Shown here: positions 53,127 to 64,000 of the stretch, one piece after another | Position numbering within the stretch: the first letter of the stretch is position 1 | Layout of the letters: each line of letters opens with the position of its first letter | Assembly (NCBI RefSeq): GCF_963675585.1 | Contig: NZ_OY776414.1 | Span: 2,645,001 to 2,709,000 of the forward strand | DNA: 64,000 nt | Source: an uncultured Draconibacterium sp. | GTDB taxonomy: Bacteria > Bacteroidota > Bacteroidia > Bacteroidales > Prolixibacteraceae | Reading direction: 5' to 3' | Notes under the pieces: generated by a model | Told to the model about the DNA's origin: nothing | Databases searched by the model: none | Seen by the model: only the letters and a program-made list of their open reading frames with translations | Made by a program: the position numbers and the translations under genes

Positions 53127-54023
53127 ATGAAAACCATAAGCCTGCTACTCATTTTACTAGCTATATTTACATTTAGTGTAAATGCCCAAAATTCGGATAC
53201 AGAAGATTGGATTTCGTTGTTTAACGGAGTAGATCTTGAAGGATGGACAATAAAAATTACAGACTCTGAGCTTGGTGTAAATCTCAACGAGACTTTTATT
53301 GTTGAAGACTCAATGCTTCGAATTCGTTACAACAAATACAAATCTTTTAACAACAACTTTGGACACCTGTATTATCACACTCCCTTTTCGTATTACAAAT
53401 TGAGTTTTGACTATCGTTTTGTAGGTGAGCAATTAACAGGTGGCGCCAGTTGGAATGTACGTAACAGTGGCATAATGTTACACTCGCAATCGGCCGAAAG
53501 TAATGAGTTTGGGCAACACTTTCCTGTTTCGATTGAACTTCAGCTTTTGGGTGGGCTTGAACAGGGAGAACGCCCCACTGCCAATGTTTGCACACCGGGT
53601 ACAGCGGTTGAAACAAACGGGATGGTGAACTACGATCACTGTATAAATTCAAAATCGAAAACTTATAATGGCGATCAGTGGGTACACTGTGAAGCAATTG
53701 TTATGGGTGGCGATTACATGACATTTATTGTTGAGGGTGACACCGTTTTACATTTTAAAAAGCCACAAATAGGGGGCGGTTTTATTTCGAATAAAGAAGG
53801 TGCCGTTGACTGGAATAACTATGGAGTGGAGCGCGATGAGGAACTGTGGATGGCAAAAGATGGGGAAATACTTACCAAAGGTTACATTGCCTTACAAGCC
53901 GAAAGTCATCCCATCGATTTCAAAAACATTAAACTCCTTAATCTGTGTGGTTGCAAAGACCCGAAAGCAAAAAACTATAAGTCGTATTTTATTACCAACG
54001 ATCAATCGAAATGTAAATATTGA
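53127..54023 (+). CDS. Secreted DUF1080 protein with C-terminal Cys motif
   Basis: A 298-residue protein with signal peptide (ISLLLILLAIFTFSVNAQ) and a DUF1080 sandwich: DWISLFNGVDLEGWTIKI, YYKLSFDYRFVGEQL, NVRNSGIMLHSQSAESN and the ending GYIALQAESHPIDFKNIKLL. It lacks the close similarity to the DUF1080 protein at 16363. The last ~26 residues, CGCKDPKAKNYKSYF then SKCKY, resemble the Bacteroidota GCxDPxAxNY...C repeat found at the ends of exported proteins. The start is 1 bp after the DUF1456 stop. Confidence 0.9.
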   Translation: MKTISLLLILLAIFTFSVNAQNSDTEDWISLFNGVDLEGWTIKITDSELGVNLNETFIVEDSMLRIRYNKYKSFNNNFGHLYYHTPFSYYKLSFDYRFVGEQLTGGASWNVRNSGIMLHSQSAESNEFGQHFPVSIELQLLGGLEQGERPTANVCTPGTAVETNGMVNYDHCINSKSKTYNGDQWVHCEAIVMGGDYMTFIVEGDTVLHFKKPQIGGGFISNKEGAVDWNNYGVERDEELWMAKDGEILTKGYIALQAESHPIDFKNIKLLNLCGCKDPKAKNYKSYFITNDQSKCKY

Positions 54024-58871: not shown

Positions 58872-58988
58872 TCACTTTTTTTACTTCCCCTTCTAACTTG
58901 CCCATTCAGCAAGAATGGAATTTCTATGTTCTAAAACAAGTTTTTACTTTTATTCGAAAGCCATATTACTTTCGTTTGAAATTTATCT

Positions 58989-59026: not shown

Positions 59027-59917
59027 ATGATTTTCAACATCCAGCGGTTTTCAACACACGACGGAAATGGTGTGCGAACAGTTGTTTTCTACAAGGGCTG
59101 TCCGTTAAGTTGCTGGTGGTGCAGTAATCCTGAAAGTCAATCATTTAATTACAGCTTCCTGTACGACAAAAAGTTTTGTAAAAACTTTGAAGATTGTATG
59201 CTCATCGAACCCAAATCGATTTCACGTTCTTCGGATGGCTCGCGTCAAATCAATCGCGAACAAATTCAAAATCCTGAAAATTTGAAAAACACCTGCATCT
59301 CGAAAGCATTAACGGTTTCGGGCGAACAAAAAAGTGTTGATGAAATTCTTTCAGAAATAGAAAAAGACAGGGTATTTTATGGTAAAAACGGAGGAGTTAC
59401 ACTTTCCGGTGGCGAACCACTTTCGCAGGGAAGCGATTTAGATGAATTGCTACACGCGCTAAAAGTCCGGAAGATTAGTGTGAATATTGAGACTACGCTT
59501 CATGTTCCCTGGCAAAAGATAGAACGTTGTATTGGACTGGTTGACACTTTTTTAGTTGATCTGAAACACACTCAAAAAGACAAATTAAAAAAACATACGG
59601 GTGGAAATGTTTTACTTGTGATGTCGAACCTTGTTCGACTGGATAATGCAGGTGTAAATTACATTGTTCGAATACCTGTAATACCAGAGTTTAATCATTC
59701 GGAAACAGAAATCTCAGAACTCATTTATTTTGTATCAACACTAAAAAATGCCAGAGAAATTCATTTTCTGCCCTATCACACTTTTGGCAAAGAAAAATAC
59801 CAGATGCTGGGATTAACATACAAAATGGGAAGCATTACCGCAGTAAAACACACTGAACTTGAACCGTACATTGCCCTGGCTCAAAACAAAGGTTTTAAAA
59901 CAAAAATTGGAGGTTAA
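59027..59917 (+). CDS. ybiY: Glycyl radical enzyme activase (YbiY-like radical SAM)
   Basis: A 296-residue radical SAM enzyme that installs the glycyl radical on its partner. It begins IFNIQRFSTHDGNGVRTVVF, then the cluster motif C25-PLS-C29-WW-C32 (CxxxCxxC), and GGVTLSGGEPLSQG for SAM binding. The extra ferredoxin-type insert is reduced: only Cys51, Cys57 and Cys90 remain instead of two full four-Cys sets. E. coli YbiY, as I recall it, shares its start, the LHVPW and EIHFLPYHT segments and a similar reduced insert. The next gene starts 1 bp after its stop. Confidence 0.93.
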   Translation: MIFNIQRFSTHDGNGVRTVVFYKGCPLSCWWCSNPESQSFNYSFLYDKKFCKNFEDCMLIEPKSISRSSDGSRQINREQIQNPENLKNTCISKALTVSGEQKSVDEILSEIEKDRVFYGKNGGVTLSGGEPLSQGSDLDELLHALKVRKISVNIETTLHVPWQKIERCIGLVDTFLVDLKHTQKDKLKKHTGGNVLLVMSNLVRLDNAGVNYIVRIPVIPEFNHSETEISELIYFVSTLKNAREIHFLPYHTFGKEKYQMLGLTYKMGSITAVKHTELEPYIALAQNKGFKTKIGG

Positions 59918-59918
59918 A

Positions 59919-62339
59919 ATGATAAGCGAAAAACAAACAAGCAAAATTACCGACCGAATTGCACATTTGCGTGAAAAAGTTTTGAGTACAAAACCATCGG
60001 TTTGTACCGAACGCGCTCGTTTTTACACCACTGTTTATCGCGAAAACGAAGAACAACCCATAATTATAAAACGCGCCCTGGCTCTTGAAATGACCTTAAA
60101 AGAGATGACCATCTTTATTGACGAGGGAGAGTTGATTGTAGGAAATCAATCGAGTCAACACCGTGCAGCTCCTATTTTTCCGGAGTATGCAGTGGATTGG
60201 CTGCCGGAAGAAATGGACGAGCTGGACAAACGACCCGGCGATGCATTTTTCATTACCGACAAACACAAAGAGGAACTCCTTGAAATTGCCCATTGGTGGA
60301 AAGGAAAAGTATTGTGGGACAAAGGCCGGGCGCTGATGTCGCAAGAGTTAAGAGACTTGCAGGATTCAGCCATAATTAAAGCAACCGGGAATCTTACATC
60401 GGGCGATGCACACATTGCCGTTGACTTTTATAAAATACTGGACCAGGGTCTAGATGCTTATTTGGACGAAATTTCATATTACAACACACAAATCGATCGC
60501 ACAACAATTGAGGGCGTAAAAAAGGATCATTTTTACAATGCGCTCCACATTTCCGTAAAAGCGCTCCGGATTTTTATCGAACGATACAGTACGCTTGCAC
60601 TATCGGAGAGTTTACTGGAAGAAGATTCGACACGCGAAGAAGAGCTGAAAATCATTTCGGGAAACTGCAGGCACATCGCACATCATCCACCAAAAAACTT
60701 TTACCAGGCCTTACAACTCACTTATTTCATTCAACTTGTTTTGCAAATTGAAAGTAACGGGCACAGTGTTTCACTGGGAAGAATGGACCAATATCTTTTT
60801 CCATTTTATCAGCAGGACAAACTAAGTGGCAAAATAACAGAGGAAGAAGCTTCAGAACTGCTTGAAAACACCTGGATCAAATTAATGTCGATAAATAAAA
60901 TTCGACCATGGTCGCACACACGGTTCTCTGCCGGCGGGCCACTCTACCAGAATGTGACCATAGGCGGACAAACTACCGAAGCCAAGGACGCAGTAAACGA
61001 ACTTAGTTTTCTTATTCTTGATTCGGTGGGTAAAATGAAACTAACCCAACCCAATCTTTCAGTACGGTTTCATAAAAACATCGACCAAAAATTTATGATG
61101 GAATGCATGCGTGTAATTGAAATGGGATTTGGAATGCCATCATTCAACAACGACGAAATTGTAATTCCAGAATTGATCAACCTTGGTGTGGAAAAGGAAG
61201 ATGCCTATAACTTTTCGGCTATCGGATGCATCGAAATTGCGGTACCCGGCAAATGGGGCTACCGATGCACCGGCATGAGTTTTCTAAACTTTATGCGCGT
61301 ATTTTTAGCATCGATGTACGATGGTTTAGACAAACAAACCGGAAAAACGTTTCACAAAGGAACAGGCCATTTTAAAGATTTCGAAAGTTTTGAGCAGGTT
61401 TACGAAGCCTGGCAAAATCAGGTGAAATTTTATGCAAAAAAAACCATTGAGATTGACACAGCCGTTGATACTGCACTTGAAATATATGTTCCCGATATCC
61501 TTTGCTCCACTTTTGTTGACAGTTGCATTTCCCGGGGAAAAACAATAAAAGAAGGTGGCTCGAAATATGATTTTGTTTCCGGCTTACAGGTGGGAATAGC
61601 CAACCTTGGCAATTCATTGGCTGCCATTAAAAAACTGGTTTTTGAAGAAAAACGAATTACAAAAGAGCAGTTGTTACACGCCATTGAAACTGATTTTGAA
61701 GGCAAAGATGGCGAAAAAACCAGGCAACTGCTTCTGAATTTTGCACCAAAATATGGCAACGACGACGATTATGTTGACCTTTTGCTTCGAGATGCTTACA
61801 ATGAATTTATTGATGAAATAGACAAGTACCACACCACGCGTTACAATCGCGGGCCAATTGGATGTCGCTACTACGCAGGCACATCAAGTATTTCAGCGAA
61901 TGTTCCGAACGGCGCAGTGGTTCCGGCAACTCCTGACGGACGAAAAGCCTTTACACCGGTGGCCGAAGGAAGCTCTCCATCATCGGGAACAGACTTACTT
62001 GGGCCAACTGCTGTATTTAAATCGGTTGCCAAACTTCCTACCGAAAGAATAATGGGAGGTGTTTTATTGAATCAGAAACTTTCGCCGGCAACCATTGCAA
62101 ACGATGCAAATAAAGAAAAATTAATATCAATAATAAGCGCCTTTTTTGCCGACCTAAAAGGCTGGCATGTGCAGTACAATATTGTATCGAAAGACACGCT
62201 GCTGGCGGCCAAAAAGAATCCCGAAAAATACCGCGACCTGATTGTTCGTGTGGCCGGATATTCGGCGTTTTTTACTACTTTATCACCTGATACACAAGAC
62301 GACATTATAGCAAGAACAGAACATTCATTAAACCATTAA
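59919..62339 (+). CDS. ybiW: Glycyl radical enzyme, YbiW/PflD-like (predicted anhydrohexitol-phosphate lyase)
   Basis: An 806-residue glycyl radical enzyme. The thiyl Cys437 lies in AIGCIEIAVPGKWGYRC; the Glu two residues on (Glu439) is the GCxE pattern of the dehydratase/eliminase branch, not the CC of pyruvate formate-lyase. The radical Gly780 is in VRVAGYSAFF, 26 residues from the end. Segments SNGHSVSLGRMDQYL, FGMPSFNNDEIVIPE and LTSGDAHIAVDFYK agree closely with E. coli YbiW. YbiW and PflD are reported to open the ring of 1,5-anhydrohexitol 6-phosphates. ATG 59919 has GGAGGT 5 bp upstream. Confidence 0.94.
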   Translation: MISEKQTSKITDRIAHLREKVLSTKPSVCTERARFYTTVYRENEEQPIIIKRALALEMTLKEMTIFIDEGELIVGNQSSQHRAAPIFPEYAVDWLPEEMDELDKRPGDAFFITDKHKEELLEIAHWWKGKVLWDKGRALMSQELRDLQDSAIIKATGNLTSGDAHIAVDFYKILDQGLDAYLDEISYYNTQIDRTTIEGVKKDHFYNALHISVKALRIFIERYSTLALSESLLEEDSTREEELKIISGNCRHIAHHPPKNFYQALQLTYFIQLVLQIESNGHSVSLGRMDQYLFPFYQQDKLSGKITEEEASELLENTWIKLMSINKIRPWSHTRFSAGGPLYQNVTIGGQTTEAKDAVNELSFLILDSVGKMKLTQPNLSVRFHKNIDQKFMMECMRVIEMGFGMPSFNNDEIVIPELINLGVEKEDAYNFSAIGCIEIAVPGKWGYRCTGMSFLNFMRVFLASMYDGLDKQTGKTFHKGTGHFKDFESFEQVYEAWQNQVKFYAKKTIEIDTAVDTALEIYVPDILCSTFVDSCISRGKTIKEGGSKYDFVSGLQVGIANLGNSLAAIKKLVFEEKRITKEQLLHAIETDFEGKDGEKTRQLLLNFAPKYGNDDDYVDLLLRDAYNEFIDEIDKYHTTRYNRGPIGCRYYAGTSSISANVPNGAVVPATPDGRKAFTPVAEGSSPSSGTDLLGPTAVFKSVAKLPTERIMGGVLLNQKLSPATIANDANKEKLISIISAFFADLKGWHVQYNIVSKDTLLAAKKNPEKYRDLIVRVAGYSAFFTTLSPDTQDDIIARTEHSLNH

Positions 62340-62357
62340 AACCAAAATACTAAACAA

Positions 62358-63317
62358 ATGAACAAATACCTTTGCGGAGTAGATATTGGTGGCACAAAAT
62401 GCGCCATCGCGCTTGTAGATCAGGATGGAAAAATGCTCGATAAAATATCGACTTGTGCTCATGTGGATCGTGGCGAAGATGAAATGATAAAATTTATTGC
62501 TGACCAGATCAAAATACTATTTAAACGAAACAACCTGCAACAATCAGATGTGGAGGGAATTGGCATTGGATGCGCCGGACACATTCGATTTAAAGATGGC
62601 GTAATAATTACTACTTCAAATTTAAAGGGATTCAAAAATTATCCCTTGCGTGCTACCATGCAGCAATATTTTGAAATTCCGGTAATTGTTGACAACGATG
62701 CCAATGCACAGGCTTTTGGCGATTTTATGTTTGGTGCCGGCAAAGGATACAACGACATGGTTTTTCTTACCATTAGCACCGGGATTGGTGCGGGTTTGGT
62801 TCTCAATAAAAAAATGTACCGGGGAGTTACCGGAACGGCCGGCGAATTTGGGCATACAATTGTTGAAGCGCACAGTGATTTAACCTGTTCGTGCGGGAAC
62901 AAAGGATGTTTAATGGCGCATGCATGTGGAATGGCTCTTCCCTACCTGTTTCAGAAAAAGTTAAACGAAGGGAAAAAAACAAAGCTGCGCATGCCGCCCA
63001 ATTTTGATGTTTCGAAAATAAGTGGACAGTACCTGAAAAAAGGATTGGAAATGGACGATCCATTATCAAAGGAAATCATTTCGGATAGTGCATATTATGT
63101 CGGACTTGGAATTTATAATATCTTTCAAACCTTAAATACGCCTTTGGTTGTACTTGGCGGCGGCCTGACAAACTGGGGCGACTTTTATCTCGACAAAATA
63201 AAAGCGACCTTTTATGAACTGGCGCGAGACATGATTTTTGATCCGATGGAAATTGTAATCTCAAAAATTGGTGCAGATGCGGGAGTTATTGGTGCGGCTG
63301 CTTTAACACTGGAATAA
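62358..63317 (+). CDS. ROK-family sugar kinase
   Basis: A 319-residue ASKHA kinase. The ATP motif is YLCGVDIGGTKCAIALVDQD, the catalytic Asp114 lies in IVDNDANAQAFG, and TISTGIGAGLVLN is the second phosphate loop. The structural zinc site has GEFGHTIVEAH and TCSCGNKGCLMAH; the ROK signature usually ends GCxE, but here Met186 replaces the Glu. It starts 18 bp after the glycyl radical enzyme gene. In this context it is the likely source of the phosphorylated substrate (1,5-anhydroglucitol or -mannitol 6-phosphate), an inference. Confidence 0.92.
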   Translation: MNKYLCGVDIGGTKCAIALVDQDGKMLDKISTCAHVDRGEDEMIKFIADQIKILFKRNNLQQSDVEGIGIGCAGHIRFKDGVIITTSNLKGFKNYPLRATMQQYFEIPVIVDNDANAQAFGDFMFGAGKGYNDMVFLTISTGIGAGLVLNKKMYRGVTGTAGEFGHTIVEAHSDLTCSCGNKGCLMAHACGMALPYLFQKKLNEGKKTKLRMPPNFDVSKISGQYLKKGLEMDDPLSKEIISDSAYYVGLGIYNIFQTLNTPLVVLGGGLTNWGDFYLDKIKATFYELARDMIFDPMEIVISKIGADAGVIGAAALTLE

Positions 63318-63318
63318 T

Positions 63319-64000
63319 ATGTTGAACGAACGACAAAATTTAATTCTAAAAACTCTGGGAGAAAACGATCAAACTTCGGTAAATGTTCTCTCCGAAAAGT
63401 TAAATGTTTCGTCGGTTACAATCAGACAAGACCTTAAATTTTTAGAAGCTGAAGGTCTTTTAAAGCGGGTGCACGGTGGCGCAGTTTTAAAAGATGCCGA
63501 CGACCTAACCAACCGGCTTGGCGTTAACTACGAAAAAAAACTACGCATTGCACGAAAAGTGGCAGCGCGTGTAAACGAAGGCGAAACTATTTTAATCGAA
63601 TCAGGTTCGGTAAATGTTCTTTTGGCGCGCGAGCTGCTTAAAATAAAACGGGTTACGATTATCACTACCAATGTTTATATTGCCCGCCAATTCAGAAAAA
63701 ACGAACAGGCAAACATTATTGTACTTGGTGGCATTTACCAGCACGACAGCGAAACGCTGGTGGGCAAAATAACACGAGCCTGCATCGATCAGTTAAACAT
63801 CGACAAAGCCTTTATTGGCATTGACGGTTATTCAAAAGAAGCCGGATTTACACTGCGCGATCTGTTCAGGGCCGAAGTATCGAGCCATATAATACAAAAG
63901 GCCAAAGATGTTTTTGTAGTCAGCGATTCGAGCAAATTCGGGAAGACTCATCTGACCAATATTTGTTCAATAAACGACATTCAGCACATTGTGACCAACA
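63319..64000 (+). CDS. DeoR-family transcriptional regulator, partial
   Basis: Runs past the window end; 227 codons are visible. The N-terminal DeoR winged helix-turn-helix is clear (LSEKLNVSSVTIRQDLKFLE, then GLLKRVHGGAV), followed by the sugar-phosphate-binding domain (ILIESGSVNVLLARELLKI, VTIITTNVYIARQF, KAFIGIDGYSKEAGFT). DeoR/GlpR proteins usually repress sugar operons and respond to a phosphorylated intermediate. It begins 1 bp after the ROK stop, so it is in the glycyl radical operon and probably controls it. Confidence 0.93.
   Translation, partial: MLNERQNLILKTLGENDQTSVNVLSEKLNVSSVTIRQDLKFLEAEGLLKRVHGGAVLKDADDLTNRLGVNYEKKLRIARKVAARVNEGETILIESGSVNVLLARELLKIKRVTIITTNVYIARQFRKNEQANIIVLGGIYQHDSETLVGKITRACIDQLNIDKAFIGIDGYSKEAGFTLRDLFRAEVSSHIIQKAKDVFVVSDSSKFGKTHLTNICSINDIQHIVTN

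Follow-up and report, generated by a model that had tools for sequence, protein, structure and literature searches.

The 64,000-bp stretch of DNA analysed here (the window; positions 2645001-2709000 of contig C4 in the 6.03-Mb, four-contig genome of an uncultured Draconibacterium sp.) ends in a compact plus-strand operon of four genes, spanning 59027-64065, for a radical SAM glycyl-radical-enzyme activase, a glycyl radical enzyme, a ROK-family kinase and a DeoR-family regulator. The genes are separated by 1, 18 and 1 bp, and both this spacing and the gene order, which were first described in an earlier note made from the letters alone, are borne out by the coordinates and by Pfam and NCBIfam family matches. 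The same order recurs in 12 further Bacteroidota loci (L008-L013, L015 and L089-L093; L009 has an additional small open reading frame, and L008 and L089 possibly come from one genome) and is therefore not attributed to chance. Two other loci, L014 and L017, have the activase, the glycyl radical enzyme and the ROK kinase without the DeoR gene.

The first gene (59027-59917) encodes a YbiY/PflC-like activase of 296 aa, which scores 307.7 bits against TIGR02494 (cut-off 174.35) and carries the CxxxCxxC motif at Cys25, Cys29 and Cys32. The second (59919-62339, counted from the ATG at 59919, the mechanical open reading frame beginning at a TTG at 59859) encodes a YbiW-clade glycyl radical enzyme of 806 aa, predicted to be a 1,5-anhydroglucitol-6-phosphate lyase. 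The two radical-site motifs that had been read in it are confirmed, GCIE with Cys437 and RVAGYSAFF with Gly780. The enzyme is 55.4% identical to Escherichia coli YbiW over 803 positions, compared with 37.4% for PflD and 38.9% for glycerol dehydratase, and its closest named relative, 88% identical, lies in a Draconibacterium metagenome-assembled genome. Among solved structures it matches 6xs4 and YbiW (8id7 and 8yjn) best (993-1010 bits), followed by glycerol dehydratase (603 bits), 9rco (545), diol dehydratase (531) and PflD (511).

In a tree of 116 glycyl radical enzyme rows (LG+G4, quick search), 87 rows, including E. coli YbiW and the window enzyme, form the YbiW clade with an SH-aLRT of 100, and the 29 rows outside it include PflD, glycerol dehydratase 1r8w, CutC, HypD and PflB (the last counted twice). 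The tree rules out HypD, CutC, glycerol dehydratase and PflD as identities of the window enzyme. The earlier note had regarded grouping with another characterised clade as the outcome that would speak against its assignment, and the enzyme falls in the YbiW clade of a tree that left out benzylsuccinate synthase, hydroxyphenylacetate decarboxylase and the sulfolyases, whose solved members score at most 436 bits with it against about 1000 for YbiW. Within the clade it belongs to a 39-row group (SH-aLRT 99) that unites the gammaproteobacterial YbiW set with Bacteroidota, most Bacillota enzymes being in another group. It also keeps all 42 clade-signature positions, chosen as conserved across 97% or more of the clade and seldom seen in 24 contrast rows; this contrast is uneven, since two thirds of its rows are HypD-like and PflD-like rows were left out. 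No match to the enzyme was obtained at E 1e-150 in 394 other genomes sampled from the phylum. The one further PF02901 match in the genome is a trans-4-hydroxy-L-proline dehydratase, above its NCBIfam cut-off; that system, with its activase adjoining, occupies L005:7436-10975, the enzyme itself being at 970932-972875 of contig C1. As a separate observation on the activase, it has further cysteines outside the CxxxCxxC motif at positions 51, 57, 90 and 168, the first three of which have counterparts in the 14 Bacteroidota activase rows, the window's included; E. coli YbiY has eight cysteines besides the motif.

In E. coli, YbiW and PflD convert 1,5-anhydroglucitol 6-phosphate and 1,5-anhydromannitol 6-phosphate to 1-deoxyfructose 6-phosphate, and each of the two pathways starts with phosphorylation of the polyol by the phosphotransferase system (PTS) (PMC12441222). 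Among 61 genomes, namely the window's and 60 relatives, six encode a closely similar enzyme (81-100% identity), and these six were searched for components of such a system. Neither enzyme I (PF05524) nor an EIIC of PF02378 was found in any of these six operon-bearing genomes, and each search was positive in 7 of 14 control genomes; phosphorylation of the E. coli type thus lacks both of these components in all six. The searches covered PF02378 among the EIIC families, and the others should not work without enzyme I. Another route of phosphorylation is therefore needed, and the third gene of the operon is the candidate for it.

This gene (62358-63317) encodes a protein of 319 aa, a predicted ATP-dependent 1,5-anhydrohexitol 6-kinase, for which ROK (PF00480, 220.5 bits) is the sole Pfam family above cut-off, with no helix-turn-helix domain. 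The features of a ROK kinase, DxGGTK, the catalytic Asp, ExGH and CxCGxxGC, are all present. Its association with the lyase extends well beyond the window. When a ROK neighbour was defined as a match of more than 100 bits within 3.5 kb of the enzyme, and an FsaA-like gene as one in the locus, 30 of the 87 clade rows had ROK, 38 had an FsaA-like gene and 19 had neither; none was counted with both, although an FsaA gene could be overlooked, since the sequence reaches 2.5 kb in each direction at only 13 of 29 ROK loci. L082, with FsaA and a weak, truncated ROK match, was counted under FsaA, and L055, L057 and L061, with weak ROK-like neighbours, under neither. The ROK label changes eight times on the enzyme tree, seven of the changes being forced by starred branches, which suggests repeated exchange or loss of the kinase and FsaA contexts. 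Within the order to which the window belongs, the kinase was found in 8 of 393 genomes at E 1e-50 or better (none weaker than 7.8e-120), and in all eight it lies beside the enzyme, at most 33 bp away in seven and about 650 bp away in L213.

The residue that sets these kinases apart is found at the contact with the C1 hydroxyl of the sugar. Asp187 of Plesiomonas shigelloides NagK engages the sugar 1-OH, and the D187N variant has a Km for GlcNAc of 430 uM instead of 98 uM and a kcat of 110 instead of 202 per s (PMC10031466); in the sequence of that protein N104, D105, E154, H157 and D187 agree with the paper's numbering. The same zinc motif of the human GNE kinase contains Glu588, for which a comparison with E. 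coli glucokinase suggested a role in sugar binding (PMC2742894). The window kinase resembles the solved ROK kinases 3vgk (Streptomyces griseus glucokinase) and 7p7i (P. shigelloides NagK) in its catalytic Asp, the preceding Asn, ExGH and the Cys-rich zinc motif, and it keeps the remaining contacts as N113, D114, E163 and H166. In place of the acid that contacts the sugar after GCx, which is Glu in 3vgk and Asp in 7p7i, the window kinase has Met186.

An alignment of 94 ROK rows places this difference in context. Met occupies the acid position in 30 of the 34 enzyme-linked rows, the other four having Ala, Gln, Cys and a gap. The kinases of all eight genomes of the order have Met there as well. 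The 60 background rows (25 loci, 29 loci from a phylum sample, E. coli NagK, Mak, NanK and AlsK, and the two solved kinases) have Glu in 58 and Asp in two. In the phylum sample, ROK proteins were found at E 1e-45 in 34 of 395 genomes, the window's included, and all 29 fetched from the other 33 have Glu. Bacteroidota contribute 14 of the 30 Met kinases (counting the window's), Spirochaetota 9, Bacillota 5, and an unassigned bacterium and a Chloroflexota plasmid one each; the 30 form one group (SH-aLRT 82) even with that column removed. Met is therefore a fixed mark of one subfamily and not a repeated event; Fisher values, which count related rows as independent observations, should accordingly not be read as probabilities. 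The kinase is best described, from this alignment and grouping, as a distinct ROK subfamily.

Such a substitution fits the predicted substrate. 1,5-Anhydroglucitol differs from glucose in lacking the C1 hydroxyl, and an acid at the C1 contact would therefore have nothing to hold. Among the new observations, Met at this position argues most strongly for the proposed kinase, if indirectly. The idea that a kinase stands in for the PTS, put forward in the earlier note, gains support from this residue together with the kinase-lyase linkage and the lack of enzyme I and PF02378 EIIC in the six genomes.

It may be asked whether the kinase is instead a general glucokinase or fructokinase that came to lie in the operon by chance, with the substrate of the radical enzyme arriving from elsewhere. 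Its best matches among solved structures are indeed ROK glucokinases, and in one cited NagK the acid is not kept (PMC10031466), but its score against TIGR00744, the NCBIfam model for ROK glucokinase, is 221 bits and falls under the cut-off of 260.35, the acid itself has been lost, and the protein belongs to a subfamily of its own that stands beside the enzyme in eight of eight genomes of the order with the kinase. This explanation is considered very improbable.

A less distant alternative retains the whole layout and changes the sugar, which would then be 1,5-anhydromannitol, another anhydrohexitol or a C1-substituted sugar, all of them sugars whose C1 carries no free hydroxyl. From Met at the C1 contact it follows only that the acid is dispensable, and a beta-glucoside kinase, 4htl, is among the solved matches. 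The related PflD is, moreover, reported to use the mannitol form (PMC12441222). The window enzyme nevertheless groups with YbiW and apart from PflD, as its identities with the two also suggest, and another sugar is on balance unlikely.

The kinase loci of other phyla may bear on how the sugar is acquired. Thirty chosen flanking proteins were scanned for families, and ABC transporter genes were recognised in 7 of the 16 non-Bacteroidota Met-kinase loci, several of the others being short contigs or outside the scan. Ribose-type ABC systems were identified with Pfam in L016, L043 and L047, with a homologous ATPase in L022; an allose-type permease is annotated in L117, and another ABC type is present in L018, with homologues in L021. 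These transporters bear on a further possibility, that the pathway is one of repair, removing toxic 1,5-anhydroglucitol 6-phosphate made accidentally by hexokinases. Their presence at several ROK loci suggests uptake for use, and the dedicated kinase of the operon would produce the very compound to be cleared, so that repair is hardly credible. Two observations on these loci are recorded for themselves. L117 (464-7325) lies on Chloroflexota plasmid CP069395, a cold-seep plasmid of 179,736 bp that has the ROK kinase, lyase and activase aboard and encodes, besides the permease, a ribulose-phosphate-epimerase-family protein. Proteins of the D-lyxose isomerase family occur near Clostridia ROK-lyase loci, at L049:6881-7558 (PF07385) and, as a homologue, at L052:7989-8675.

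The fourth gene (63319-64000 in the window and on to 64065, 65 bp past its end; L003:8319-9065) encodes the DeoR-family regulator of 248 aa, with matches to PF08220 and PF00455. Upstream of the activase, at 58948-58981 on the plus strand, is its predicted operator, two TTTYRTNYGAAA half sites 22 bp apart from start to start with no mismatch, which reads TTTTATTCGAAA-N10-TTTCGTTTGAAA. The pattern is found at up to three mismatches in 11 of 14 Bacteroidota activase upstream regions (L011 with two mismatches), a fit that is partly by construction, since the pattern was derived from these very sequences, several of which are close relatives; L009 has a version with a 9-bp gap and one mismatch. In L014 and L017, the only two of these loci that lack a DeoR gene, it is absent near the operon in every gap variant tried, L014 having a single three-mismatch match about 780 bp before the activase. 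That the operator tracks the presence of the DeoR gene is not by construction. A second copy, which might have pointed to a co-regulated transporter, was sought in the six operon-bearing genomes and none was clear: at zero or one mismatch each shows the operon's own copy, with one additional one-mismatch match in G031, and beyond the 10 own-site rows (both strands) the operator gave 27 rows in the six genomes against 27 for a reversed control pattern.

Taken together, these results suggest that the operon probably serves the oxygen-free catabolism of a free 1,5-anhydrohexitol, most likely 1,5-anhydroglucitol, through a ROK kinase and a YbiW-type lyase. The free sugar would enter unphosphorylated through a permease, and the ROK kinase would use ATP to place a phosphate on its 6-hydroxyl. 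The activase would set a radical on Gly780 of the enzyme, from which it would pass to Cys437, and the lyase is predicted to open the ring C-O bond of the 6-phosphate and yield 1-deoxyfructose 6-phosphate. The DeoR protein would repress the operon from the tandem operator upstream of the activase.

FsaA or FsaB and GldA act after the lyase in the E. coli pathway, roles that fit the gene order there, fsaA adjoining ybiY and fsaB, gldA and PTS genes lying in the neighbourhood of pflD. The transporter, FsaA-like aldolase and GldA-like reductase that had been looked for 3' of the DeoR gene do not adjoin the operon. The genome of the window does encode an FsaA-like protein (L159, C1:147859), which keeps FsaA residues Q59, K85, Y131, R134 and S166 and falls under the NCBIfam cut-off (191.7 against 245.95); an FsaA-like protein is also present in 19 of 28 other genomes searched. 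Four of the other five operon-bearing genomes have a single PF00923 protein, in which the FsaA tyrosine is missing, and the fifth has no PF00923 protein. The PF00923 proteins L160, L161, L163 and L164, with Phe at Tyr131 and Glu at Gln59, and L162, with Met at Tyr131 and Gln at Gln59, were rejected as FsaA-like on these residues. A Gfo/Idh/MocA protein near L052, considered as a 1,5-anhydrofructose reductase, matched 2glx and 4koa, but under two uncharacterised members, and is a lead only; for another near L015 these two structures were not among the matches.

Several points weigh against the proposed pathway. The Bacteroidota operons have no transporter, aldolase or reductase gene close by, an FsaA-like protein was found in none of the other five operon-bearing genomes (E 1e-5), and a GldA-like protein in none of the six (E 1e-10, in a search that had no positive control). 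FsaA loci are not always PTS loci, as five of the ten flanking proteins examined there are PTS proteins (L054, L058 and L079) and five are not. The exceptions to Met include L055, L057 and L061 (Ala, Gln and Cys), which are poorly aligned and have no zinc motif, and the truncated L082 (the gap). As the Met rows are one clade, Met may have arisen in a single ancestral event, and not every NagK has the acid, D187 not being conserved in Pseudoalteromonas (PMC10031466). For the lower pathway, either housekeeping enzymes serve or its steps differ. A broader and bolder proposal, to which we give somewhat less than even credence, is that a dedicated, Met-marked, ATP-dependent 1,5-anhydroglucitol 6-kinase family replaces the PTS in four phyla (Bacteroidota, Spirochaetota, Bacillota and Chloroflexota), and that Bacteroidota without an FsaA-like protein degrade 1-deoxyfructose 6-phosphate with an enzyme that has yet to be linked to this step.

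The operon is followed on its 3' side by a gene for an HlyIII/TrhA protein on the plus strand, a rhamnulokinase gene on the opposite strand and, farther on, a defence island about 12-24 kb beyond the window end (L004:1337-13073) with DndC, a DndD/PbeC-like protein, PbeA and a restriction-enzyme-like protein. Two genes at L003:17731-19999 resemble an IS21-type IstA/IstB pair. Against a defence library three of the four operon proteins have no match, and the DeoR protein gives two weak matches that cover roughly its 50 N-terminal residues. Some 5 kb upstream of the operon, at 53127-54020, is a gene for a protein of the 3-keto-disaccharide hydrolase family (PF06439).

If the proposal is correct, it adds a new kinase activity, extends radical anhydrosugar cleavage to bacteria that have no PTS, and links a single residue to substrate choice within a large kinase family, in a way that can be checked by one mutation. 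A literature search turned up no such kinase activity, and Ma et al. (2024) may mention one. Among known systems, the PflD/PflC-Frw locus of E. coli resembles the window operon in its related lyase and activase and differs from it in its PTS genes, fsaB and gldA, PflD itself belonging to another clade. The closer counterpart is the E. coli YbiW/YbiY pathway (Ma et al., 2024, JACS 146:26187, as cited in PMC12441222), which has a lyase of the same clade with the activase adjoining. In contrast to that pathway, in which fsaA is next to ybiY, the window operon has no adjoining fsaA and instead has a ROK kinase and a DeoR regulator, in a genome where no PTS was found. The comparison supports a reading of the operon as a putative kinase-based variant of this recently described pathway.

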